This document shows, in pieces, positions 15,587-26,751 of a DNA stretch of 32,935 bases; position 1 is the stretch's first letter, and every line of letters starts with the position of its first letter. The DNA comes from a virus. The position numbers and the translations under genes are program-made. The notes beneath the pieces were generated by a model. The model was not told the DNA's origin, searched no databases, and saw only the letters and a program-made list of their open reading frames with translations. Location of the stretch: the IMG/VR virus record IMGVR_UViG_3300021335_000054, positions 1-32,935 of that record. One strand, 5' to 3'.

Positions 15587-15935
15587 TGGGCTTTGCTCCC
15601 TTGTGTGGGTTGTCGATTTTGTATTGGGTTGGTGCGCGTCCGCGAGTCTTGATAGGCAGTCCTGCTTTGCGCATGTTCTTGATGTAGGTTCTGACCGACT
15701 CTTTGGTGTATCCGAACTTAGCCATTGCATCGTCAATGGTTCTGTATCTGGTCAGCATGAACTTGGCTAGACTTTCTGGATACCAGTCTGTCTTGCGTTG
15801 TCTGCTTTCCGATACTGGTTTGTGAACTACAACTGACGGTACCTGTTTTGGAACTGTCAGCATGTCTTCAAGCATCTTGTCGATACGCGCGAGTCGATAC
15901 TCGATCTTGTCGAGTCGTTTGTTGATTCCTAGCAT
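15579..15935 (-). CDS. Coiled-coil plus helix-turn-helix-like protein (118 aa)
   Basis: Residues of about 3-28 form a clear heptad helix (INKRLDKIEYRLARIDKMLE), suggesting a dimer. A basic linker (ESRQRKTDWYPES) leads to a second helical domain with winged-helix character (RTIDDAMAKFGYTKESVRTY, then IKNMRKAGLPI), which looks like a DNA-binding recognition unit. The ATG at 15935 overlaps the ERF stop codon (TAATG) and has GGAG eight bases upstream; an ATG two codons earlier is too close to that site. The gene lies between ERF and the SSB-like gene and may regulate or assist recombination. The function is not established. Confidence 0.65.
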   Translation of the reverse strand: MLGINKRLDKIEYRLARIDKMLEDMLTVPKQVPSVVVHKPVSESRQRKTDWYPESLAKFMLTRYRTIDDAMAKFGYTKESVRTYIKNMRKAGLPIKTRGRAPTQYKIDNPHKGAKPNG

Positions 15936-16375
15936 TACCATGTCTCCTCTGCTGGTGCGCTGCTCTTCTTGGCAACTTTGGTTACTTTGGGTGATGACAC
16001 GCTGGCTGCATTGCCATCGTCGTCTTCTGACGGCAGACCAAAGGCTGCTTGCAAACCATAACGCTTGGCGTAGGTAATGCCGCTGCCCATCTTCTGCGGG
16101 TCGGTATTGTCTTTGGTAAGCACAGGTGTGCGGCCAGTCATTGAGTCGCCAGACTCGTGCATGATTGTTGTGGTTACAAAGATGTGATGCTCATCGAAAT
16201 CGACAAGTTGGGTGAATGTCAGACCAACCTTGCCAGCTTCTGCGCGGACAGTCTCAATGACTTCCTCTAGGCTGGCATACTTGGACTTGAAGAAGGGATT
16301 GGCTGCACCCTTCTTGGCTGCTGCCCCACTGTCGTGGAACTTGATTAGCGCTGTGGCTAGATTCTTAGTCGTCAT
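15935..16375 (-). CDS. erf: ERF-family single-strand annealing protein
   Basis: This 146-residue protein has the ERF signature: NPFFKSKYASLEEVIETVR near the N-terminus and GSGITYAKRYGLQAAFGL at residues 97-114. ERF proteins anneal complementary single strands after an exonuclease has exposed them, and in P22 they circularise the incoming genome. The C-terminus (residues 118-146) is acidic then basic and shorter than in P22 Erf, which has an extra domain. It directly follows a YqaJ-type exonuclease, the classic two-component recombinase pair. The start is preceded by AAGGAGAACC. Confidence 0.9.
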   Translation of the reverse strand: MTTKNLATALIKFHDSGAAAKKGAANPFFKSKYASLEEVIETVRAEAGKVGLTFTQLVDFDEHHIFVTTTIMHESGDSMTGRTPVLTKDNTDPQKMGSGITYAKRYGLQAAFGLPSEDDDGNAASVSSPKVTKVAKKSSAPAEETW

Positions 16376-17168
16376 AGTGGTTCTCCTTTACTGCGATACG
16401 AAGTGATCCGCGCTTGTCGCGCTTGATGGTGAGGAGATCGCAGTACACCTCTCGCTCTCCATCGCCTACCATTGCCTTGAGATCGGCCTTGGCAGATTCA
16501 AATAACTGTGCATTGCCCTGCTGTTCGATGTAGTCATGGCACCGGCTGATGAACTCATTGTCACCAGACGCATCGCGCTTGACCATATCGTTGACAGGGA
16601 TCTTGTCTGTGTTGAGCGAGGCAACGTGGTTGCCGTACACCTCGTCAGCTTCTGCTGGCGGTGTGTCATCTACAACAAGTTGCCAGAATGTCTTGAGATG
16701 CACACGCATACGCTCGACGTAATCATCAGCGCGAGATACACGCACTGATTCCCAGCGTCTGTTGCCAAACAGGACTGACAGATAACATTCAGTGTAGTTG
16801 CCGACCCACATATAGAACTGGATCTGTGGCATGTACTGCTTGAGTACATTGTCGATAGTGTTGTTGTCGTAGGTATGTTTGCACTCGATTGGTGTGACGC
16901 CCTCGACAAGACCGTCAAGCATCCCCTTGCACGGCACACCGTCTACATCCAGTTTGATCTCATGCTGGCTGGCAGACACTTGCTTGCCTGTCTGCTGCTG
17001 AAACCAGTTGATGTTGAACTGTTCGGTGAATGTGCCAAGCTGCACTGGCAATACATCTGATAGATCGTCAGGCTTTTTGCGTCCTGTCTTCTCTTCCCAG
17101 AGTGATATCCAGTCACCTTGCATGATGCGGCGCATGTCGCTACCGCCGATAAATCCTATTCGGTTCAT
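16365..17168 (-). CDS. YqaJ-family (lambda exonuclease-like) recombination exonuclease
   Basis: A 267-residue PD-(D/E)XK nuclease. The motifs run in the expected order: FIGGSD near the N-terminus, LGTFTE with E49, GMLDG with D85, PIECKHT with E95 and K97 as the E-x-K pair, and QYMPQIQFYMWV with the Q-x-Q motif around residues 115-117. It would digest one strand from double-stranded ends to make single strands for the ERF protein. The frame is open 23 codons further upstream, but MNRIGF at 17168 has an AAGGAGAACC site six bases before it, and a promoter-operator just upstream. It overlaps the ERF gene by 11 bases. Confidence 0.88.
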   Translation of the reverse strand: MNRIGFIGGSDMRRIMQGDWISLWEEKTGRKKPDDLSDVLPVQLGTFTEQFNINWFQQQTGKQVSASQHEIKLDVDGVPCKGMLDGLVEGVTPIECKHTYDNNTIDNVLKQYMPQIQFYMWVGNYTECYLSVLFGNRRWESVRVSRADDYVERMRVHLKTFWQLVVDDTPPAEADEVYGNHVASLNTDKIPVNDMVKRDASGDNEFISRCHDYIEQQGNAQLFESAKADLKAMVGDGEREVYCDLLTIKRDKRGSLRIAVKENHYDD

Positions 17169-17187
17169 TTGGTTCTCCTTTGTATGT

Positions 17188-17216
17188 ATTCTACTGCGAG
17201 TATGCAGTAAGCGCAA
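17188..17216 (-). promoter_or_regulatory. Putative internal promoter with palindromic operator upstream of the exonuclease
   Basis: On the minus strand TTGCGC (17211-17216) and TAGAAT (17188-17193) are 17 bases apart. TAGAAT is a good -10; the -35 is weak. The 16-bp palindrome ACTGCGAGTATGCAGT (17193-17208) fills the space between them and matches the operator at 21245-21260 almost exactly. It lies at the 3' end of the upstream gene, about 20 bases from the exonuclease start. Binding of a repressor here would block the polymerase. Confidence 0.45.
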
Positions 17217-17829
17217 CCTTCTTGGATACAAGTGCATCCATTAGTTTCTGCCTCTTTTCTATGCGCCAATGGATATGCTTGTGGAACTCGGCGTATGCCG
17301 GCCAGAAGGTACACGACTCAGCGACCTTCTGGACGGCATACAGCACGATGTCCGCAGGATACTTTATCAGTTGTGATGTGAGCGACTTGATCCTGATTGT
17401 CTGATCTTCTGCTGTTTCGCCACTGGGCTTCACCACAAGCGTGGCAAGCATAGTTAGCTGCTTACCTATATCTTCTGGCGAGAGGGGTGTCAGTGACGCT
17501 TGTACGGCGTTTAACGCACGATCCAGTGACTGTTCGTCCTCACATTGTATGTCGTAGCGCAACAGTGTGATTTGTATGTCAGCATCACGAGGGAATCGTG
17601 TGCGTTCAACAGGACTAATCGTCAAGCCCGGCAAGGATGCCAGCGAAGTGACCAGATTGCTGTCCACCTTTGCCTGATCTTTTACTTCCAACAGACGAGC
17701 CACTGCTCGTTGCTGCTGATCCCCACTCAACTGCTTGACGACACCACTTTCTATAAGCGAGGTCAGGTCGTTTGAATGTGTTGCCTTTCGAGAGGTGGTG
17801 ATTGCGGAACTTATCTGTTTCAGCGTCAT
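17191..17829 (-). CDS. Unknown protein upstream of the recombination genes (212 aa)
   Basis: A soluble protein of mixed charge. The first 75 residues are polar (IESGVVKQLSGDQQQRAVARL, trimmed here to its central part) and encoded in a stretch also open for the preceding gene. The C-terminal half contains LIKYPADIVLYAVQKVAESC followed by TFWPAYAEFHKHIHWRIEKR. A pattern of this kind, x-P-x-D-(V/I)-x-x-A followed by W-P-x-x-x-E, occurs in phage proteins near replication genes, so a replication accessory or loader role is possible but unproven. There is no Walker motif. GGAG lies 12 bases before the ATG. It sits between a nuclease and the exonuclease gene. Confidence 0.65.
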   Translation of the reverse strand: MTLKQISSAITTSRKATHSNDLTSLIESGVVKQLSGDQQQRAVARLLEVKDQAKVDSNLVTSLASLPGLTISPVERTRFPRDADIQITLLRYDIQCEDEQSLDRALNAVQASLTPLSPEDIGKQLTMLATLVVKPSGETAEDQTIRIKSLTSQLIKYPADIVLYAVQKVAESCTFWPAYAEFHKHIHWRIEKRQKLMDALVSKKVALTAYSQ

Positions 17830-21061: not shown

Positions 21062-21232
21062 CTACTCAGCCATTGTGCGGACAATGCCGCCGATGAAGGC
21101 GACACATATGCCGCCGATAAGACATGTGATCTGAAAGAAGAAAGCGCTGTTGTCCATTGGCTCAGCCATTGATGTGCCAAAGATCAGAGCGAACATGCCG
21201 ATTCCGATGAGAAAGTTTGATAGAAGTTTCAT
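21062..21232 (-). CDS. Two-helix small membrane protein, first gene of the leftward operon (56 aa)
   Basis: Reading the minus strand from the ATG at 21232 gives 56 residues with two hydrophobic segments: residues 3-21 (LLSNFLIGIGMFALIFGTS) and 31-51 (FFFQITCLIGGICVAFIGGI), separated by AEPMDN and ending in RTMAE. A very strong ribosome binding site (AAGGAGG) lies seven bases upstream, and a promoter-operator a further few bases upstream, so it would be the first and probably most highly made early protein. A membrane role such as superinfection exclusion or membrane anchoring of replication is possible, but not shown. Confidence 0.65.
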   Translation of the reverse strand: MKLLSNFLIGIGMFALIFGTSMAEPMDNSAFFFQITCLIGGICVAFIGGIVRTMAE

Positions 21233-21244
21233 TTTTTCCTCCTT

Positions 21245-21260
21245 ACTGCATACTTGCAGT
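21245..21260. promoter_or_regulatory. Palindromic operator of the leftward promoter
   Basis: ACTGCA-TACT-TGCAGT is a perfect 6-bp inverted repeat around a 4-base centre. It overlaps the -10 element of the putative leftward promoter. A copy matching 19 of 20 bases over the extended site lies at 17192-17211. Additional GCAGT half-sites follow at 21264-21268 and 21287-21291. It is probably bound by one of the operon's own helix-turn-helix proteins. Confidence 0.6.
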
Positions 21261-21285
21261 ATAGCAGTGATTTTGTTGGTTGCAA
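21258..21285 (-). promoter_or_regulatory. Putative sigma-70-type promoter of the leftward (early) operon
   Basis: On the minus strand TTGCAA (21280-21285) and TATACT (21258-21263) are separated by 16 bases. The -10 matches the consensus at five of six positions and the -35 at four. Transcription would start near 21251, leaving a leader of about 19 bases with the strong AAGGAGG site of the first gene. The position between a terminator (21333-21366) and the first gene is as expected. Confidence 0.5.
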
Positions 21286-21332
21286 CGCAGTTATATGGCC
21301 GTTCTTAGGCGGTGCTGCGGCTGCATACCGGT

Positions 21333-21366
21333 CAAAGAAAAAGCCCCGCAGCCGAAGCTGCGAGGC
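21333..21366 (-). terminator. Rho-independent terminator of the isolated 141-aa gene
   Basis: On the minus strand GCCTCGCAGC-TTCG-GCTGCGGGGC (21343-21366) forms a 10-bp stem with one G-U pair and a very stable UUCG tetraloop, followed directly by TTTTTCTTT. It lies 12 bases after the stop of the 141-aa gene and separates it from the main leftward operon. Confidence 0.88.
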
Positions 21367-21378
21367 TGTGTCAGCCGG

Positions 21379-21804
21379 TTAAGCTGACTTGGAGAAGAAG
21401 GAACCGGCATCTGCGGTGGCTGCTGCGTTCTGCTTGGCAGTTGCAACCTCATCTGGGAACATCTGCTGTTGCGCTTGCTTGAGGTAAGTGAGCATCTCTT
21501 CTGAGACGCTCTGCTGATCGTTGTGCCAGTTCCAGTCCCGCTCCCACTGGAGGAGTTGTGCGGCATCGAAGGCTGGCGCACCCTCGACATCGCCGTGTCT
21601 GTTGGCGTTCATCTCAACGCCCTTGTCGAAGATCTGTGTCTTGATCTCTTCCTTCTTGTTGATCGACCATTCCAGATGATCGATGAACTTCTGAATGTGG
21701 TACTGAACTGATCTGTTTGTTGTGTTGTTTTGTTCAACAGCAGCAAGAGAAAAGATGGTGGTCAGGTTCTTGGCAAGTCCATTTACATTTGATTGCTTTG
21801 ACAT
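21379..21804 (-). CDS. Isolated leftward gene, unknown function (141 aa)
   Basis: A soluble, helical protein (NTTNRSVQYHIQKFIDHLEW and QLLQWERDWNWHNDQQSVSE) with a polar, Ala-rich C-terminus ending in SFFSKSA. No domain is recognised. It stands apart as a single-gene unit: its own terminator lies downstream, a 5'-leader hairpin (21825-21841) and a large structured region lie upstream, and AAGGAGTG is well spaced from the ATG. That layout suggests strong, separately controlled expression, perhaps the first gene made after infection. Confidence 0.72.
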   Translation of the reverse strand: MSKQSNVNGLAKNLTTIFSLAAVEQNNTTNRSVQYHIQKFIDHLEWSINKKEEIKTQIFDKGVEMNANRHGDVEGAPAFDAAQLLQWERDWNWHNDQQSVSEEMLTYLKQAQQQMFPDEVATAKQNAAATADAGSFFSKSA

Positions 21805-21824
21805 TAGTCACTCCTTAGCAAAGA

Positions 21825-21841
21825 GGCGAGACGATCCCGCC
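21825..21841 (-). promoter_or_regulatory. Leader hairpin in front of the 141-aa gene
   Basis: On the minus strand GGCGGGA-TCG-TCTCGCC forms a 7-bp stem with one G-U pair and a three-base loop. It ends a few bases before the AAGGAGTG ribosome binding site of the 21379-21804 gene and could stabilise the message or tune its translation. Confidence 0.4.
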
Positions 21842-21875
21842 TTACGAACAACCCGCAATCACAGTAGCCTCTGCA

Positions 21876-22018
21876 ATCAAGTCAGGCTCGGCCGGCATGC
21901 CAGTTTGATCCAGCCCGCTTGCGCGGCAGCGCACCGGCCCGCTTGCGCGGATGCGCAAATAAAGCGCGGGCCAATAAGCGCGGGCTGGGCAGCAAACTGA
22001 GCATGGGCGAGACTTGAT
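21876..22018. other. Large structured element: 143-nt imperfect inverted repeat folding as a three-way junction
   Basis: Nested arms pair from the outside inward: ATCAAGT 21876-21882 with ACTTGAT 22012-22018; CTCG 21887-21890 with CGAG 22008-22011; CC with GG; CATGC 21896-21900 with GCATG 22001-22005; CAGTTTG 21901-21907 with CAAACTG 21993-21999; CCAGCCCGC 21910-21918 with GCGGGCTGG 21980-21988. Inside are two hairpins: TGCGC-GGCA-GCGCA (21920-21933) and a longer one joining GGCCCGC 21936-21942 with GCGGGCC 21966-21972 and TTGCGC with GCGCAA. The total is about 52 pairs, with small bulges only. The direct repeat GCCCGCTTGCGCGG (21913 and 21937) allows alternative pairing. It is much richer in G+C than its surroundings. 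No protein-coding frame is convincing. It could be an RNA, a replication origin or a packaging site. Confidence 0.65.
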
Positions 22019-22183
22019 ACGCGCGACCAGCGCGGGTGCAAAGAGGCCGCTGTGATGCGTTGGTTGTTCTTGGCGGATCGGGTCGTCTCTTTGGTTAGGT
22101 GTGCTATGTCAATGCTAGCAAATGTGGACTTGGCAAGGTTCTGCCACCAGCTTTTCTCGCAGTCTGATGTTGTTGTGGAGCAT

Positions 22184-22204
22184 GGATATACTTGAGGTAT
22201 ATCC
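22184..22204. repeat. Perfect inverted repeat GGATATAC-N5-GTATATCC
   Basis: Eight-base arms around TTGAG, followed by four further C residues. The left arm contains TATACT across the arm-loop boundary, the same as the -10 of the leftward promoter. Part of the site (TGAGGTATAT, 22193-22202) is repeated at 22354-22363. It is probably a protein-binding site or part of a promoter; no convincing -35 is seen. Confidence 0.5.
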
Positions 22205-22251
22205 CCCCTGTCCTGCGCGTGACGGCAATAGCGGCGCAACGTCCGTCAGTG

Positions 22252-22271
22252 CAGCAGTCAGCAGACTGCTG
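22252..22271. repeat. Palindrome CAGCAGTC-AGCA-GACTGCTG
   Basis: A perfect 8-bp inverted repeat with a 4-base centre. It shares the GCAGTC-N4-GACTGC core with the palindrome at 22325-22340, 72 bases downstream. The half-sites GCAGT and ACTGC are the same as in the leftward operators but in everted order. A probable regulatory binding site. Confidence 0.5.
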
Positions 22272-22324
22272 TGCTGTCGCAACGGCCGCCACTAACTAAT
22301 TGCCACGCGCACAGAACAGGTATA

Positions 22325-22340
22325 GCAGTCCTCAGACTGC
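22325..22340. repeat. Palindrome GCAGTC-CTCA-GACTGC
   Basis: A perfect 6-bp inverted repeat with a 4-base centre, the second copy of the site at 22252-22271. It is preceded by GTATA, so that GTATAGCAGT (22320-22329) is identical to 21259-21268 in the leftward promoter region. Confidence 0.5.
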
Positions 22341-22374
22341 GGAAAGGGCTGAGTGAGGTATATTTGCATTTAGT

Positions 22375-22428
22375 GGGTTGACATGGGGTTGACAGATCGG
22401 CCACTTTGGGGGGGAACACAAGGGGGGG
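22375..22428. other. GGGTTGACA direct repeat and paired G7 runs upstream of the small terminase gene
   Basis: GGGTTGACA occurs at 22375-22383 and 22386-22394, an 11-base period that puts both copies on the same face of the helix. They are followed by GGGGGGG-AACACAA-GGGGGGG (22408-22428), which could form an intramolecular G-quadruplex. TTGACA is a perfect -35 hexamer, but no acceptable -10 lies at the right distance. Its place just before the small terminase gene makes a packaging or regulatory site likely. Confidence 0.45.
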
Positions 22429-22446
22429 CAACAGTCAGGTTTGAGT

Positions 22447-22818
22447 ATGACAGTAGCTAAGACACTAACTGGTAAACAGATGGCTCTAGTTGATACGCTC
22501 GTGTCAGAAGGATGTAGCATCAAAGAGGCAGCTGGTAAGGCTGGATACGCTGAAGGAGAAAGCGGCAGAGTCACAGCCAGCAAGGCTTTGAAGCTGCCTC
22601 ATGTGCAGCAGTATATGATGCAAGCGGTAACTGAGAGTTTAGGTGTTAACGCTACGTTCGCTGCCAGCAAGTTGCTGAGACTAGCATCTGGCGCTAAGTC
22701 AGAGTACGTTCAGCTAGAAGCAAGCAAGGACATACTAGATCGTGCTGGGTTTAAGCCTGTAGATAAATCTATGCACTTGCATGCTGGGGAAATTAAGGTG
22801 AGCATAGACCTGACATAG
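22447..22818 (+). CDS. terS: Terminase small subunit
   Basis: A 123-residue protein with the typical small-terminase N-terminus: LTGKQMALVDTLVSEGCSIK followed by EAAGKAGYAEGES, a helix-turn-helix that binds the packaging site. The middle (VQLEASKDILDRAGFKPVDK) is helical and would drive ring assembly, and the C-terminus is short and beta-like (EIKVSIDL). It selects phage DNA and directs the large subunit. It is the first rightward gene after the control region. The ATG at 22447 has weak AGG upstream; a TTG two codons earlier is possible. Confidence 0.82.
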   Translation: MTVAKTLTGKQMALVDTLVSEGCSIKEAAGKAGYAEGESGRVTASKALKLPHVQQYMMQAVTESLGVNATFAASKLLRLASGAKSEYVQLEASKDILDRAGFKPVDKSMHLHAGEIKVSIDLT

Positions 22819-22896
22819 TAGGGGTGCCCCCAAAAGTGCGGCATTGTCATAGTCACGTAGTCCCACACAGACATTATAGGCAAAAAAGGTTCGATC

Positions 22897-23634
22897 ATGT
22901 GTACAGGCGGAGATCCCGGCGGGGGAACAGAGCAGCAGGCTAGTGCATCGGCACCGCCACCTGAGAGCAGTGCTGCAAGGGCTGCTAGGTTACAGCGTGA
23001 GCGTGCTAAGGCTTCTGAGATTCGCGCCAAGGCTGCGGCTCGGAGTGTAGCTGGCAAGACTGAGGCACAGATTCGGCGTGACACTTCCCCGGCCCCCTCG
23101 TTGACTCGTGGTCAGAGTGCTGCTGCTGCTAGGGCTACTGGCATGGCAAAGAACCGTGCAGCAATTAGTGAGTTGCGTGGCAGGATGGATGAGCAGCCGC
23201 CGGGTGTTTTGGGTGTTGTTGGCAGGGCTAGTTTAGAGCGTCAGGTTAAGGCGTTGGGTCAGGGTGCTATTCCTGTGCAGATTAAGTCTGACTCTGGCAT
23301 TCCGATTACCGTTGGCACTATTGGCACTACTTCAAAGCAATATACTGGTCGCCCTGAGTATGTTGGCATTGCCAAGGAGGCTGTCAAAGCTGGCGGGACA
23401 CTTACTAGCATTGACACTAGCTTGAAGGCTGCTACTGCTAGGCAGATATCGCAGCAGGAGGGTGATGAGCCGAGGCGTAAGCCTGTAGAAGAGAAGGCTG
23501 TTGAAGAGAAGCCTGTTTCTATGACTCCTGTTGGCACTTCTAGTGGTCGCACGACAAAGAGCAGGCGCAGTGTTGGTCGCAGGACTGCTTTTGGCACAAG
23601 AGCTAGTTTGATTAACTTGAGAAACGTTAGATGA
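22897..23634 (+). CDS. MC-x-GG-type protein of unknown function (245 aa)
   Basis: The protein begins MCTGGDPGGG and is rich in Ala, Arg, Ser and Gly. An Ala/Arg helical part (AARAARLQRERAKASEIRAK) is followed by a more ordered centre (IPVQIKSDSGIPITVGTIGT) and a basic C-terminus (RTTKSRRSVGRRTAFGTRAS). Start and end resemble the much smaller protein at 26781-26996 (MCIGGG... and GRRSLITGS), so the two are probably paralogues. Proteins beginning MC-x-GG lie near portal genes in many marine phages and may be minor virion components. No function is proven. Confidence 0.6.
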   Translation: MCTGGDPGGGTEQQASASAPPPESSAARAARLQRERAKASEIRAKAAARSVAGKTEAQIRRDTSPAPSLTRGQSAAAARATGMAKNRAAISELRGRMDEQPPGVLGVVGRASLERQVKALGQGAIPVQIKSDSGIPITVGTIGTTSKQYTGRPEYVGIAKEAVKAGGTLTSIDTSLKAATARQISQQEGDEPRRKPVEEKAVEEKPVSMTPVGTSSGRTTKSRRSVGRRTAFGTRASLINLRNVR

Positions 23635-23972
23635 GCAAGACTCCGGCATGGCAGCGCAAGGAAGGGCAGAATCCTCAAGGTGGTCTCAACGCTGCCGGAC
23701 GCGCATCATACAAGCGGGAAACCGGCGGCACACTCAAAGCCCCAGTAAAGGGCAAGGCGAAGACACCACAGAGCAAGCGGCGTCAGGGCAGCTTCTTGGT
23801 AAGGATGGGCAGCGCCAAGGGTCCGTTGATGAAAGATGGGAAGAAGACACGATTGAAGCTCTCACTAGAGGCATGGGGGCATCGTGGTGACAAGGCTAGT
23901 GCTGTACGCAAGGGTCGTTCTTTGTTAGCCTCTTACCAGCGTTCTAAAGAGAAGGGAAAGTCCAATGCCTAA
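23631..23972 (+). CDS. Small basic protein, DUF6321-like (113 aa)
   Basis: PAWQRKEGQNPQGGLNAAGR, then GSFLVRMGSAKGPLMKDGKK and RLKLSLEAWGHRGDKASAVR are the features of a small basic family found widely in phages (W-x-R-x-E-G-x-N-P-x-G-GLN...RM). I believe this is DUF6321, but the accession is from memory. The protein is strongly basic and probably binds nucleic acid or packs with the genome. The start overlaps the previous stop (ATGA). Confidence 0.7.
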   Translation: MSKTPAWQRKEGQNPQGGLNAAGRASYKRETGGTLKAPVKGKAKTPQSKRRQGSFLVRMGSAKGPLMKDGKKTRLKLSLEAWGHRGDKASAVRKGRSLLASYQRSKEKGKSNA

Positions 23973-24117
23973 TGTAATGGGAAAGAAGTACGCCTACACT
24001 GCTGCGGGAAAGAAGAAAGCCAAGAAGGCTGCTAAGTCTTTGCTGACTGCTGCACAGAAGAAGCTGCCGCAGGACTTGCAGGATAAAATTACCAATAGCA
24101 AGATGCGGAGTGCATAA
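23965..24117 (+). CDS. Short lysine-rich protein (50 aa)
   Basis: ATG at 23965, inside the end of the previous gene, gives 50 residues: MPNVMGKKYAYTAAGKKKAK, then KAAKSLLTAAQKKLPQDLQD and a short end. The MPNV-x-GKKY-x-YT-x-x-G start is a pattern I recognise from short proteins of marine phages. AAGGGAAAG lies upstream, and the stop overlaps the next start (TAATG), supporting translation. The protein is very basic, possibly DNA-binding. Confidence 0.65.
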   Translation: MPNVMGKKYAYTAAGKKKAKKAAKSLLTAAQKKLPQDLQDKITNSKMRSA

Positions 24118-24476
24118 TGTCGATGATTGATGATTTGAAGAATGACAAGGTTGTACGCGCAAGCGATGCTAATCCTATTAAAAGGTTTTTGAAAAAAACT
24201 TTTGGTCAGCAGTATCTGCAAGACATGACAGATGCACAGCTTCAAAAATTGATTGATAAGCCAAACAGTGTGTTTGGAAAACTAAAAGTACAAGGAATGG
24301 TTGGGTCTGAAAGGTCAAGGAGAAAAAGCCTTCTTGATAGCTCGTACAAAGATAAAATTATTCGTGACCAACAAAAGTCTGCAAGTTTTGCAAGTCGTCC
24401 ACCTTTGACAGAGGCGCAGCAAAAGAAACTTAATATGCTTGTAAAGGCATATAAGGATAAGCGGAAGAATGACTAA
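24117..24476 (+). CDS. Basic protein of unknown function (119 aa)
   Basis: A helical, Lys/Arg-rich protein (ANPIKRFLKKTFGQQYLQDM, DAQLQKLIDKPNSVFGKLKV, LTEAQQKKLNMLVKAYKDKR). No domain is recognised. It is coupled by TAATG with the gene before and overlaps the gene after by eight bases. It belongs to the group of small basic proteins between the two terminase genes. Confidence 0.62.
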   Translation: MSMIDDLKNDKVVRASDANPIKRFLKKTFGQQYLQDMTDAQLQKLIDKPNSVFGKLKVQGMVGSERSRRKSLLDSSYKDKIIRDQQKSASFASRPPLTEAQQKKLNMLVKAYKDKRKND

Positions 24477-24732
24477 GTATCAGTTTAGAGACGGCACTCC
24501 GTATGATGGGCCGTATTTTATTATGCAGGACGGTAGGGTTCTGTCTGGTGCAACTTACACACGCGACTCAAAGCGTCTAGTGGAGATGGAAGATGGCGGT
24601 GAACGCAGCCGGGAACTACACGAAGCCAGCGTTGAGGAAGCGCCTGTTCAACCGCGTAAAACGCGAGGGAAAGGGCGGAAACCCCGGTCAGTGGTCAGCA
24701 AGAAAAGCGCAAAGGCTAGCCCTGCTGTATAA
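24469..24732 (+). CDS. Small protein with overprinted basic tail (87 aa)
   Basis: Residues 1-43 (YQFRDGTPYDGPYFIMQDGR, LSGATYTRDSKRL) look like a small folded unit of a kind seen in marine phages, with a Gly/Asp/Tyr pattern. From about residue 43 the frame overlaps the gene at 24593-24760 for 140 bases and becomes basic and Pro/Ser-rich (VQPRKTRGKGRKPRSVVSKK), which may be a by-product of the other frame. The start overlaps the previous gene by eight bases. Confidence 0.55.
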   Translation: MTKYQFRDGTPYDGPYFIMQDGRVLSGATYTRDSKRLVEMEDGGERSRELHEASVEEAPVQPRKTRGKGRKPRSVVSKKSAKASPAV

Positions 24733-24760
24733 AAAGGCTGGCGGTGGGTACACGAATTAA
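24593..24760 (+). CDS. Short basic protein with GQWSARKAQ motif (55 aa)
   Basis: In another frame from the 87-residue gene, ATG at 24593 gives 55 residues: MAVNAAGNYTKPALRKRLFN, then RVKREGKGGNPGQWSARKAQ and RLALLYKKAGGGYTN. The set NYTKP, KGG-x-PGQWSARKAQ and YKKAGGGY is one I recognise as strongly conserved in short proteins of marine phages, so this frame is clearly the constrained one. GGAG lies seven bases before the ATG. Strongly basic; the function is unknown, probably nucleic-acid-binding or packaged. Confidence 0.78.
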   Translation: MAVNAAGNYTKPALRKRLFNRVKREGKGGNPGQWSARKAQRLALLYKKAGGGYTN

Positions 24761-24772
24761 TATTCGAATATT
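24759..24772. repeat. Perfect palindrome AATATTCGAATATT
   Basis: A 14-base perfect AT-rich palindrome directly after the stop of the 55-aa gene, in the 41-base gap before the next gene. It may bind a protein or form a small hairpin in the message. It lacks the G+C stem of a terminator. Confidence 0.4.
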
Positions 24773-24801
24773 CCAACCCTAAGCACAGGAATAATGGAAT
24801 A

Positions 24802-25053
24802 ATGGCACTAGCGGCTTCACAGAAATCCCTAAGAGCATGGACGCGACAGAAATGGCGCACCAAGTCAGGGAAGCCTAGCACTCAGGGCAGCAAGGCTACT
24901 GGTGAGCGGTATCTCCCTGCTGCCGCCATCTCTGCCCTGAGTGACGAAGAGTATCGGCGCACCAGCCGGAAGAAACGCGCTGCCGTAAGGCAAGGCAAGC
25001 AGTTCTCAAAGCAACCAAAGAGCATTGCTAAAAAGACTGCGAGTTACAGATGA
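24802..25053 (+). CDS. Small basic protein, DUF5872-like (83 aa)
   Basis: QKSLRAWTRQKWRTKSGKPS, TGERYLPAAAISALSDEEYR and GKQFSKQPKSIAKKTASYR are the three conserved blocks of a small basic family that occurs widely in marine phages. I believe this is DUF5872, from memory. It is very basic, ending in KK-x-x-x-YR. It may bind DNA. The ATG is within a tandem GGAATAAT repeat (24788-24803). Confidence 0.75.
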   Translation: MALAASQKSLRAWTRQKWRTKSGKPSTQGSKATGERYLPAAAISALSDEEYRRTSRKKRAAVRQGKQFSKQPKSIAKKTASYR

Positions 25054-25244
25054 GTTTCCTGCACACACTTAAACCAGAAGAGCGAGAGATCCTGCGCAGG
25101 GTGGTGAAGAAAGTCCACCTTGTTCACCACCCGAAAGAGTTTGTTACTGACCGCGAGGCCGACAAGGTTATCGCGGCTATTGGTCCAGAGGTGGTTGATC
25201 GGATGATTAAGTTCGGCAAGGATCAGAAGGTTGACCAACTTTAG
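25050..25244 (+). CDS. Small protein preceding the large terminase (64 aa)
   Basis: A helical protein (LHTLKPEEREILRRVVKKVH, FVTDREADKVIAAIGPEVVD, RMIKFGKDQ). The TD-x-EADK-x-I-x-x-I-x-PE pattern is one I know from small proteins encoded just upstream of terminase genes in marine podoviruses. The function is unknown; a packaging accessory role would fit. ATGA overlap with the gene before; it overlaps the terminase start by 14 bases. Confidence 0.7.
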   Translation: MSFLHTLKPEEREILRRVVKKVHLVHHPKEFVTDREADKVIAAIGPEVVDRMIKFGKDQKVDQL

Positions 25245-26751
25245 CTATAAGCCTGACGGCAACACCCTCAAAGCATTTATGAAAGACAACACGTTCTTTC
25301 GTGGCATCAGGGGGCCGGTAGGCTCTGGAAAGTCAGTGGCTTGTTGTGTTGAGGTCTTTCGCCGTGCGCTAGAGCAAAAGCCAAACAAGGATGGTGTTCG
25401 GCGCAGCCGGTGGGCAATCATCCGAAACACCAACCCGCAGCTTAGAACGACTACAATCAAGACTTGGCTTGACTGGTTCCCAGAGGATCAGTGGGGTAAG
25501 TTTATGTGGTCGGTGCCATACACGCACAACATTAGGCAAGCCGATCTGGAACTTGAGGTTATCTTCTTGGCCCTTGATCGCCCCGAAGATGTAAAGAAGC
25601 TGCTGTCATTGGAACTTACTGGCATCTGGATCAACGAGGCCAGAGAGGTGCCGAAGTCTATTATTGATGCGTGTACTATGCGTGTGGGTCGTTTCCCTTC
25701 TATGCGTGAAGGTGGGCCGTCATGGTCAGGTGTGATTGCTGATACCAACGCACCAGAGGAAGACCACTGGTGGCCCATTATGTCTGGCGAGGTGCCTGTT
25801 CCTGACCACATTCCTCACGAGCAAGCGCGTATGCTGGTCAAACCAGACAACTGGAACTTCTATGTGCAGCCGTCTGGTATGCGTGAGAAGATAGATAAGA
25901 ACGGCAATGTTCTGGACTATGAGTCAAACAAAGGCGCTGAGAACGCCAAGAACATGCTTGAGAGTTATTACTCAAACCTCATTCGAGGCAAAACTAAAAG
26001 CTGGATCGATGTGTATGTAATGAACCGTCTTGGCACTATCCAAGAGGGCAAGCCTGTTTATCCAATGTTTAATGGTGAGACACACATTGCTACTGAAGAA
26101 ATACCGATTGCTGCTGGTATTCCGTTGTACATTGGCATCGACTTTGGTTTGACACCGGCTGCTGTGTTTGGGCAGAAGGTGCGCGGTAGGTGGTTAATTC
26201 AAGCTGAGATTGTGGCTATTGATATGGGCATTGTGCGTTTTGCTGAGATGCTGCGCCAAGAGATTGCCACTCGTTTTGGCGATCTTGATGTGCATATCTT
26301 TGGTGATCCGGCTGGTGACTTCCGTGCGCAAACTGATGAAAGCACACCGTTCCAAATCCTGCGTGGTGCTGGCCTACGCGCACAACCAACACACAGCAAC
26401 TCTGTAGATCTGCGTCTTGAGTCAGTATCTAGCAATCTGAACAAGATGGTTGATGGCAAGCCAGCCTTCTTGATTGATCGTCGCTGTCCTACGCTCATCA
26501 AAGGATTTGAGGGTGGCTATAGCTATAAGCGACTGCAAGTATCTGGTGAAAGGTTTGATGACAAGCCTGAGAAAAATATGTATTCGCACATACACGATGC
26601 TCTGCAATACCTGATGCTGGGTGCGGGTGAAGGGCGTCAGCTTATCTCTGGTCAGAAGCCAGCAAGAGCATTTAATGCCAAAAAAGAGTTTGATGTGTTT
26701 GCCAGAAAGCCAAAGCAACAAAAACGCAGTGGCTTGTGGGCAAGGATGTAA
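25231..26751 (+). CDS. terL: Terminase large subunit (packaging ATPase and nuclease)
   Basis: A 506-residue motor protein. Walker A is GPVGSGKS at residues 28-35, and Walker B is GIWINEA at 131-137 with catalytic E136. The C-terminal RNase H-type nuclease has its acidic residues at D304 (YIGIDFG), D359 (HIFGDPAGDF) and D456 (HIHDALQYL). It pumps DNA into the prohead through the portal and cuts concatemers. The start is TTG at 25231, the only in-frame start after the upstream stop that retains the N-terminal residues before Walker A, with AAGGA eight bases upstream. Confidence 0.93.
   Translation: MTNFSYKPDGNTLKAFMKDNTFFRGIRGPVGSGKSVACCVEVFRRALEQKPNKDGVRRSRWAIIRNTNPQLRTTTIKTWLDWFPEDQWGKFMWSVPYTHNIRQADLELEVIFLALDRPEDVKKLLSLELTGIWINEAREVPKSIIDACTMRVGRFPSMREGGPSWSGVIADTNAPEEDHWWPIMSGEVPVPDHIPHEQARMLVKPDNWNFYVQPSGMREKIDKNGNVLDYESNKGAENAKNMLESYYSNLIRGKTKSWIDVYVMNRLGTIQEGKPVYPMFNGETHIATEEIPIAAGIPLYIGIDFGLTPAAVFGQKVRGRWLIQAEIVAIDMGIVRFAEMLRQEIATRFGDLDVHIFGDPAGDFRAQTDESTPFQILRGAGLRAQPTHSNSVDLRLESVSSNLNKMVDGKPAFLIDRRCPTLIKGFEGGYSYKRLQVSGERFDDKPEKNMYSHIHDALQYLMLGAGEGRQLISGQKPARAFNAKKEFDVFARKPKQQKRSGLWARM

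Follow-up and report, generated by a model that had tools for sequence, protein, structure and literature searches.

Introduction

Cis-encoded antisense RNAs that fold into hairpins are exemplified by RNA-OUT of IS10/Tn10, a 69-nt RNA whose first 35 nt are perfectly complementary to the translation start of the transposase mRNA (RNA-IN) and block ribosome binding (PMC5006887). RNA-OUT folds into a hairpin with an imperfect stem, the stability of the RNA reportedly being set by the stem domain, according to the title of a 1989 paper cited in the same article. Three further systems offer partial parallels. Template switching has been described as a mechanism that creates and maintains RNA hairpins by placing a reverse-complement copy next to its source, with compensatory changes that do not pass through G.U (PMC8794818). 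Coding palindromes of Nematomorpha mitochondria comprise long inverted repeats (to 284 bp) that overlap coding sequence (PMC6649704). Finally, certain eukaryotic hairpin RNAs arise from inverted duplication of their target gene, such that one arm is antisense to it; a Dicer/Argonaute pathway of this kind is not known in bacteria, and this last parallel is an evolutionary analogy only.

Here we describe a very long hairpin in a group of phages related to a virus of ocean bacteria. The window, i.e., the whole stretch of DNA analysed, is a virus record of 32,935 nucleotides (IMGVR_UViG_3300021335_000054). The hairpin lies next to the DNA-packaging gene; one of its arms is the antisense of the first gene of the neighbouring operon, and the other is a non-coding mirror copy of it. 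Its layout is that of RNA-OUT, in that the proposed antisense is complementary to the translation start of its putative target, but it measures 412 nt in the window and 152–1362 nt among 59 hairpins instead of 69 nt, enters the coding region by tens of nt or runs through the gene, concerns a phage gene beside terS rather than a transposase of an IS10-type element, accompanies gene 1 proteins of unlike families, and is inferred from sequence alone. Compared with template-switch hairpins, it has arms of about 410–625 bp that run through a gene and recurs in place in a phage group; in the nematomorph palindromes both arms code, whereas here one arm codes and the other is a non-coding mirror. Searches of the open-access literature showed, among the top-ranked results, no paper that describes this element (most subscription papers and all bioRxiv preprints lay outside these searches), and one pelagiphage paper contains none of six terms such as hairpin and inverted repeat (PMC10504331). 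The element was found annotated in no record opened.

Anatomy of the Hairpin

The original prediction proposed a 143-nt three-way-junction structure at 21876–22018, with nested arms, two inner hairpins, and a 24-nt duplication. The observation holds: the arms, both inner hairpins, and the duplication (21910–21933/21934–21957, 88% identical) are all present. Comparison with dinucleotide-shuffled sequence, which had been named beforehand as a test, showed that the + strand of 21876–22018 folds at -81.9 kcal/mol against -60.3 +/- 3.6 for 200 shuffles (z -6.0, 0 of 200 as good), while the - strand gives -79.1 (z -5.1). However, these coordinates are too narrow. The stretch 21805–22110 gives -176.9 (z -11.3) on + and -161.9 (z -9.6) on -, and an inverted-repeat search scored equally for both strands places the whole hairpin at 21747–22158 (score 128, shuffle 33), with folding energies of -240.5 on + and -217.4 on - and z(+) -19.9 against 30 shuffles. 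The three-way junction is the variable, non-conserved tip: of six relatives aligned with the window (L-numbers denote loci of relatives), L002, L003, L004, and L009 lack the duplication and have another, simpler apex, whereas L005 and L006 keep it.

The features of the locus are as follows.

21747..22158 (+): whole long hairpin (412 nt), folding strand +
21747..21872 (+): left arm, antisense of gene 1's leader, ribosome-binding site, start codon, and 58 nt from the start codon inward
22042..22158 (+): right arm, non-coding inverted copy (mimic) of the gene 1 start region, carrying an AGG and an ATG (22106–22108)
21876..22018 (+): apical part, a three-way junction with a 24-nt duplication, in some relatives only
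21379..21804 (-): gene 1 (141 aa), first gene of the leftward operon and proposed target
21810..21816 (-): Shine-Dalgarno-like sequence (AAGGAGT) of gene 1, inside the left arm
21342..21367 (-): terminator-like hairpin after gene 1; in full-length relatives the left arm reaches the corresponding place
22212..22322 (+): element 2, a separate conserved structured motif between the hairpin and terS
22378..22429 (+): TTGACA and G-run stretch before terS, also seen in relatives; likely terS promoter or a packaging-related site
22441..22818 (+): terS, terminase small subunit (PHROG 2538, E 3.2e-12), first gene of the rightward operon

The hairpin thus lies between two divergent operons, with gene 1 to the left on the - strand and terS, followed by head genes, to the right on +. 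Gene 1 has no family match above cut-off (only sub-threshold hits in Pfam), and its AlphaFold2 model (mean pLDDT 73.9) is nearly all helix. No match was found for gene 1 in phage records at E 0.01, nor by DNA similarity for 21200–25400. The nearest annotated relative found is Pelagibacter phage EXVC031P Hodr, by the head-tail adaptor (59% identity) and terS (52%, the only phage record with a terS match); that the group is marine is inferred from this isolate. The record of Hodr (L082, OQ414635.1) carries locus tags of another phage name (EXVC032PBaldr). Rfam families gave no match at gathering score in the whole window and, in 21700–22460, only hits at E 5–9, far under the families' cut-offs; ARAGORN found no tRNA or tmRNA. 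A retron or diversity-generating retroelement was likewise not supported, as reverse transcriptase (PF00078) was absent from all six relatives' records searched, a set that may include fragments and did not include the window.

Neighbouring Elements

Element 2 contains invariant AACGTCCG and CGCAACGGCC segments and covarying stems, with two-sided changes at 7 of 27 predicted pairs in 18 of the 19 distinct sequences found (mostly two sequence types). An exact-pattern search recovered 26 stretches in viral contigs, a U.G pair in 16 of 18 suggests the + strand, and no Rfam match was obtained in the window. In L208 (298–421), element 2 combines the left half of one type with the right half of another and is a likely recombinant. 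Just before terS, at 22378–22429, TTGACA is followed by TTTGGGGGGGAACACAAGGGGGGGCAA, which includes two G-runs and is nearly the same in L050. Further left, a 20-nt element occurs as an inverted pair (17192–17211 and 21242–21261, 95%), the right copy of which overlaps a promoter-like site (TTGCAA-16-TATACT, 21285–21258 on -), possibly a shared early promoter or operator. Finally, an Erf-like annealing protein and a RecE-like exonuclease are encoded at 15935–17237 (-), and these could anneal or convert inverted repeats.

Recurrence in Related Phages

Relatives were collected with the terS proteins of the window (set 1) and of Hodr (set 2, 79 new loci), taking the best 80 rows for each. The sets are named after the query and are not clean clades, since L190 of set 2 clusters with set 1. 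Upstream stretches were searched in 72 of 81 set-1 entries (80 loci plus the window; the other nine had under 250 nt upstream) and in 60 of the 80 rows of set 2 (20 with little upstream DNA or from contigs already included were left out). An inverted repeat of score at least 70 stands at this place in 41 of 72 and 36 of 60 loci, whereas 216 and 180 shuffles reached at most 48 and 52, respectively. The remaining 31 and 24 loci, about four in ten, fall under the limit, by divergence or by lack of the element. Outside this place, 431 windows of 1500 nt (about 215 kb from 27 loci and records, including the window, Hodr, and HTVC010P) hold no such repeat, the best scoring 59; a general repeat finder did not list even the main hairpin, and its silence is not used as evidence. 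Hodr has a nearly perfect repeat at L082:10708–10989 (101 Watson-Crick pairs, 1 G.T, 1 A.C, score 108), and HTVC010P has a weaker one over the first 74 nt of its corresponding gene (59 pairs, record ends joined), which at score 57 is below the limit.

For the counts that follow, 14 of the 41 set-1 loci were dropped (L003, L004, L005, L006, L009, L018, L020, L025, L053, L055, L058, and L059 as close copies; L044 and L047 because no proper gene 1 start was found), as were 7 of the 36 set-2 loci (near copies L121, L134, L135, L140, L142, L144, and L170), while L095, L098, and L108 (score 68, under the limit) were added from searches with gene 1, giving 30 + 29 = 59 hairpins. A gene 1, sought from 60 nt left of the arm to the right arm, could be identified in 29 of 30 and 28 of 29. 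Its start codon lies inside the left arm in 27 of 29 and 23 of 28 (50 of 57), in the loop in two (L016 and L026), and left of the arm in five, such that in these five set-2 loci the arm lies upstream of the start codon. In set 1 the arm begins 34–87 nt inside the gene in 21 of 29 and beyond its stop codon in 8 of 29; among the 57 hairpins checked, the arm runs through the gene to beyond its stop in nine (1.1–1.4 kb). In 10 of 10 full-length loci looked at (7 sequence groups, including L140 and L141 of set 2; L010 was left out, as its contig ends there), the arm ends 23–65 nt past the stop codon, in or shortly after a terminator-like hairpin. A third layout is seen in L133, L134, L135, L139, L143, and L150, whose left arm starts 45–48 nt upstream of the start codon, without the ribosome-binding site. 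L101 and L105 differ again, with inverted repeats of some 23–37 nt between the region about 665–700 nt left of gene 1's start and the region right of it, while L104 and L108 have the usual hairpin.

Right arms do not code, their frames being broken by stops and indels. The partner of the start codon is an uninterrupted ATG in 22 of 58, with open frames of 2–31 codons in 21 and 83 codons in one; translation of the right arm was therefore rejected.

Recurrence at one place, over gene 1's start, and the lack of any repeat of score 70 elsewhere in about 215 kb argue against a reading in which the repeat has no function and is merely made and repaired again and again by template switching in a divergent promoter region. 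This reading, which draws support from the substitution data below and from the published mechanism (PMC8794818), is considered very unlikely.

Strand Polarity

On the + strand, G.T juxtapositions exceed A.C by 583 to 90 over all 72 set-1 loci (not independent), with 57:3 in L010 and 59:0 in L050. By cluster of related hairpins, G.T exceeds A.C in 29 of 35, is lower in 4, and ties in 2 (sign test P 1e-5). The + strand is the more stable in 30 of 30 set-1 and 25 of 29 set-2 hairpins (55 of 59); the folding energy of + minus that of - lies below the dinucleotide-shuffle mean (8 to 30 shuffles per hairpin) in 30 of 30 and 23 of 29, by more than 2 SD in 33 of 59, and is above it by 2 SD in none. 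As the hairpins were chosen by a strand-neutral score, this preference is not built in. Simple composition or mutation bias towards G+T was also rejected, because the shuffles keep composition and the G+T share of loops (0.42–0.54) and flanks (0.48–0.66) shows no strong mutational drift in the 14 loci profiled. This further weighs against the no-function reading. L141, a full-length hairpin, is an exception without a G.T excess (14 G.T to 22 A.C). In addition, the excess of G.G and T.T over A.A and C.C (136:21 in seven long hairpins) is more than wobble explains; it would fit the greater tolerance of such mismatches in RNA helices.

The folding molecule is therefore the strand opposite to gene 1's mRNA. 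A 5' leader hairpin of gene 1's own mRNA, which would hide its ribosome-binding site and is suggested by the arm covering that site, is contradicted by this polarity and is regarded as highly improbable. A DNA element, namely a cruciform or fold-back site for replication, recombination, or packaging, its arms homogenised by template switching or by the phage's own RecE/Erf-type recombination, would be consistent with the position adjacent to terS, with the recombination genes of the window, and with the double changes described below. However, double-stranded DNA gives no strand preference, and this reading does not predict arms set by gene 1's start or terminator; it is thus unlikely, although a fold of + single-stranded DNA is not excluded and cannot be told from RNA here.

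The interpretation offered in the original prediction is therefore partly supported. A phage-encoded structured RNA is supported by the strand preference and by pairing kept through compensatory change, whereas a cruciform origin and a packaging signal, the two alternatives it named, are not supported, although neither is excluded. It had not recognised the arms as antisense and mirror copy of gene 1, and the three-way junction it named is a variable part.

A long double-stranded RNA decoy or RNase III substrate, for example to occupy host ribonucleases or to process the late transcript, was also considered, given that full-length hairpins contain 325–483 Watson-Crick pairs and that the + strand fold is favoured. 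A decoy, however, need not copy gene 1 nor stop near its terminator. The longest uninterrupted paired runs are 9–31 bp in 25 loci and are shorter than random placement at the 1% level in 3 and at the 5% level in 7 (the window and close relatives, making up five, together with L013 and L030), and otherwise as expected, indicating neither a perfect duplex nor a general avoidance of long runs. This reading is very unlikely.

Evolution of the Arms

All set-1 pair comparisons together give 415 double Watson-Crick changes, with 196 WC/GU and 2 WC/AC single changes (strongly non-independent, and with 2,565 cells whose partners shifted set aside); set 2 gives 121, 33, and 9, respectively (1,621 set aside). 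Without setting such cells aside, seven close set-1 pairs give 48 WC/GU against 4 WC/AC, two divergent set-1 pairs give 11 against 13, and ten chosen set-2 pairs give 102 against 94. The polarity at the level of substitutions is thus firm only for close set-1 relatives and is weak or absent in set 2; misalignment inflates A.C in the others, but a real lack of polarity is not excluded. Double Watson-Crick changes are transversions at least as often as transitions (38:35 in nine set-1 pairs and 76:46 in ten set-2 pairs), which stepwise RNA compensation via G.U does not predict and which points to copying between arms, as expected of a template-switch hairpin (PMC8794818).

L015 represents a natural swap. 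Its inner hairpin is 90.6% identical to the window's over 170 nt, yet its gene 1 is unrelated (blastp E 0.07; its family against the window's gene 1, hhalign probability 0.1%), and its outer right arm matches its own gene 1. The gene 1 of L141 resembles neither of these two families (hhalign probability 6.9% and 0.3%).

Proposed Mechanism

The explanation we favour, although tentatively and at somewhat less than even odds, is that the locus makes a + strand non-coding RNA that folds into one long imperfect hairpin. From 5' to 3', this RNA would carry the antisense of gene 1's ribosome-binding site and start (in some relatives, of nearly the whole gene 1 mRNA to its terminator), a variable loop, and a mimic of the mRNA that holds the antisense arm in a compact hairpin. 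As in RNA-OUT, the hairpin would invade gene 1's mRNA: the perfect antisense-mRNA duplex is far more stable than the mismatched, wobble-rich stem, so pairing would block ribosome binding and shut gene 1 off, perhaps at the early-to-late switch. Exchange of the right arm for gene 1 mRNA is favoured by 108–483 kcal/mol in 7 of 7 cases modelled, although the sign is expected because the left arm and the mRNA are exact complements. The right arm probably keeps up with the changing gene by templated copying (template switching). In this account, the anatomy, its recurrence, the strand polarity, and the one case in which the right arm goes with an exchanged gene 1 rest on the sequences themselves, the anatomy and the polarity being well supported, whereas transcription, pairing in trans, repression, and timing are inferred. 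A scan confined to sigma-70-like promoters found no excess left of the left arm on + (mean z -0.21, n 30), nor at the apex on either strand. This weighs against the proposal, as do the weak or absent substitution polarity in set 2 and in the two divergent set-1 pairs, the lack of a G.T excess in L141, the transversion-type double changes, the excess of G.G and T.T, the loci under the score limit, and the loci in which the start codon lies in the loop or outside the arm.

The next best reading is self-masking, in which + strand read-through transcription would make antisense RNA over gene 1 and the mirror arm just downstream would fold that antisense onto itself, thus protecting gene 1 from silencing; the hairpin would then be an antidote, not a repressor. 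This would explain why pairing is kept along the whole antisense stretch, even several hundred nt of coding sequence, and why no dedicated promoter is seen. On the other hand, other leftward genes of the window have no such mirror arm within 1500 nt, although read-through would cross them too, and the intramolecular stem is weaker than antisense-mRNA pairing. We consider this reading unlikely.

Implications

A more far-reaching view, possible but less likely than not, is that these hairpins form a distinct class of phage regulator, or "mirror genes": a phage would keep a non-coding mirror copy of its first leftward gene next to it, so that one + strand RNA carries antisense and decoy of the same gene in one hairpin of up to 1.2–1.4 kb, renewed by template switching as the gene evolves or is replaced, throughout a widespread phage group. 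Because the sequence changes while the anatomy stays, homology-based RNA searches would miss such an element. The locus is also a clear case for studying how long hairpins are kept paired while one arm must encode a protein, a question raised in the template-switching literature. If it works as proposed, a phage group that includes the ocean isolate Hodr (and, with a shorter and weaker repeat at the same place, HTVC010P) controls its first leftward gene with antisense hairpins larger than the classical examples known to us, and this becomes testable in an isolate.
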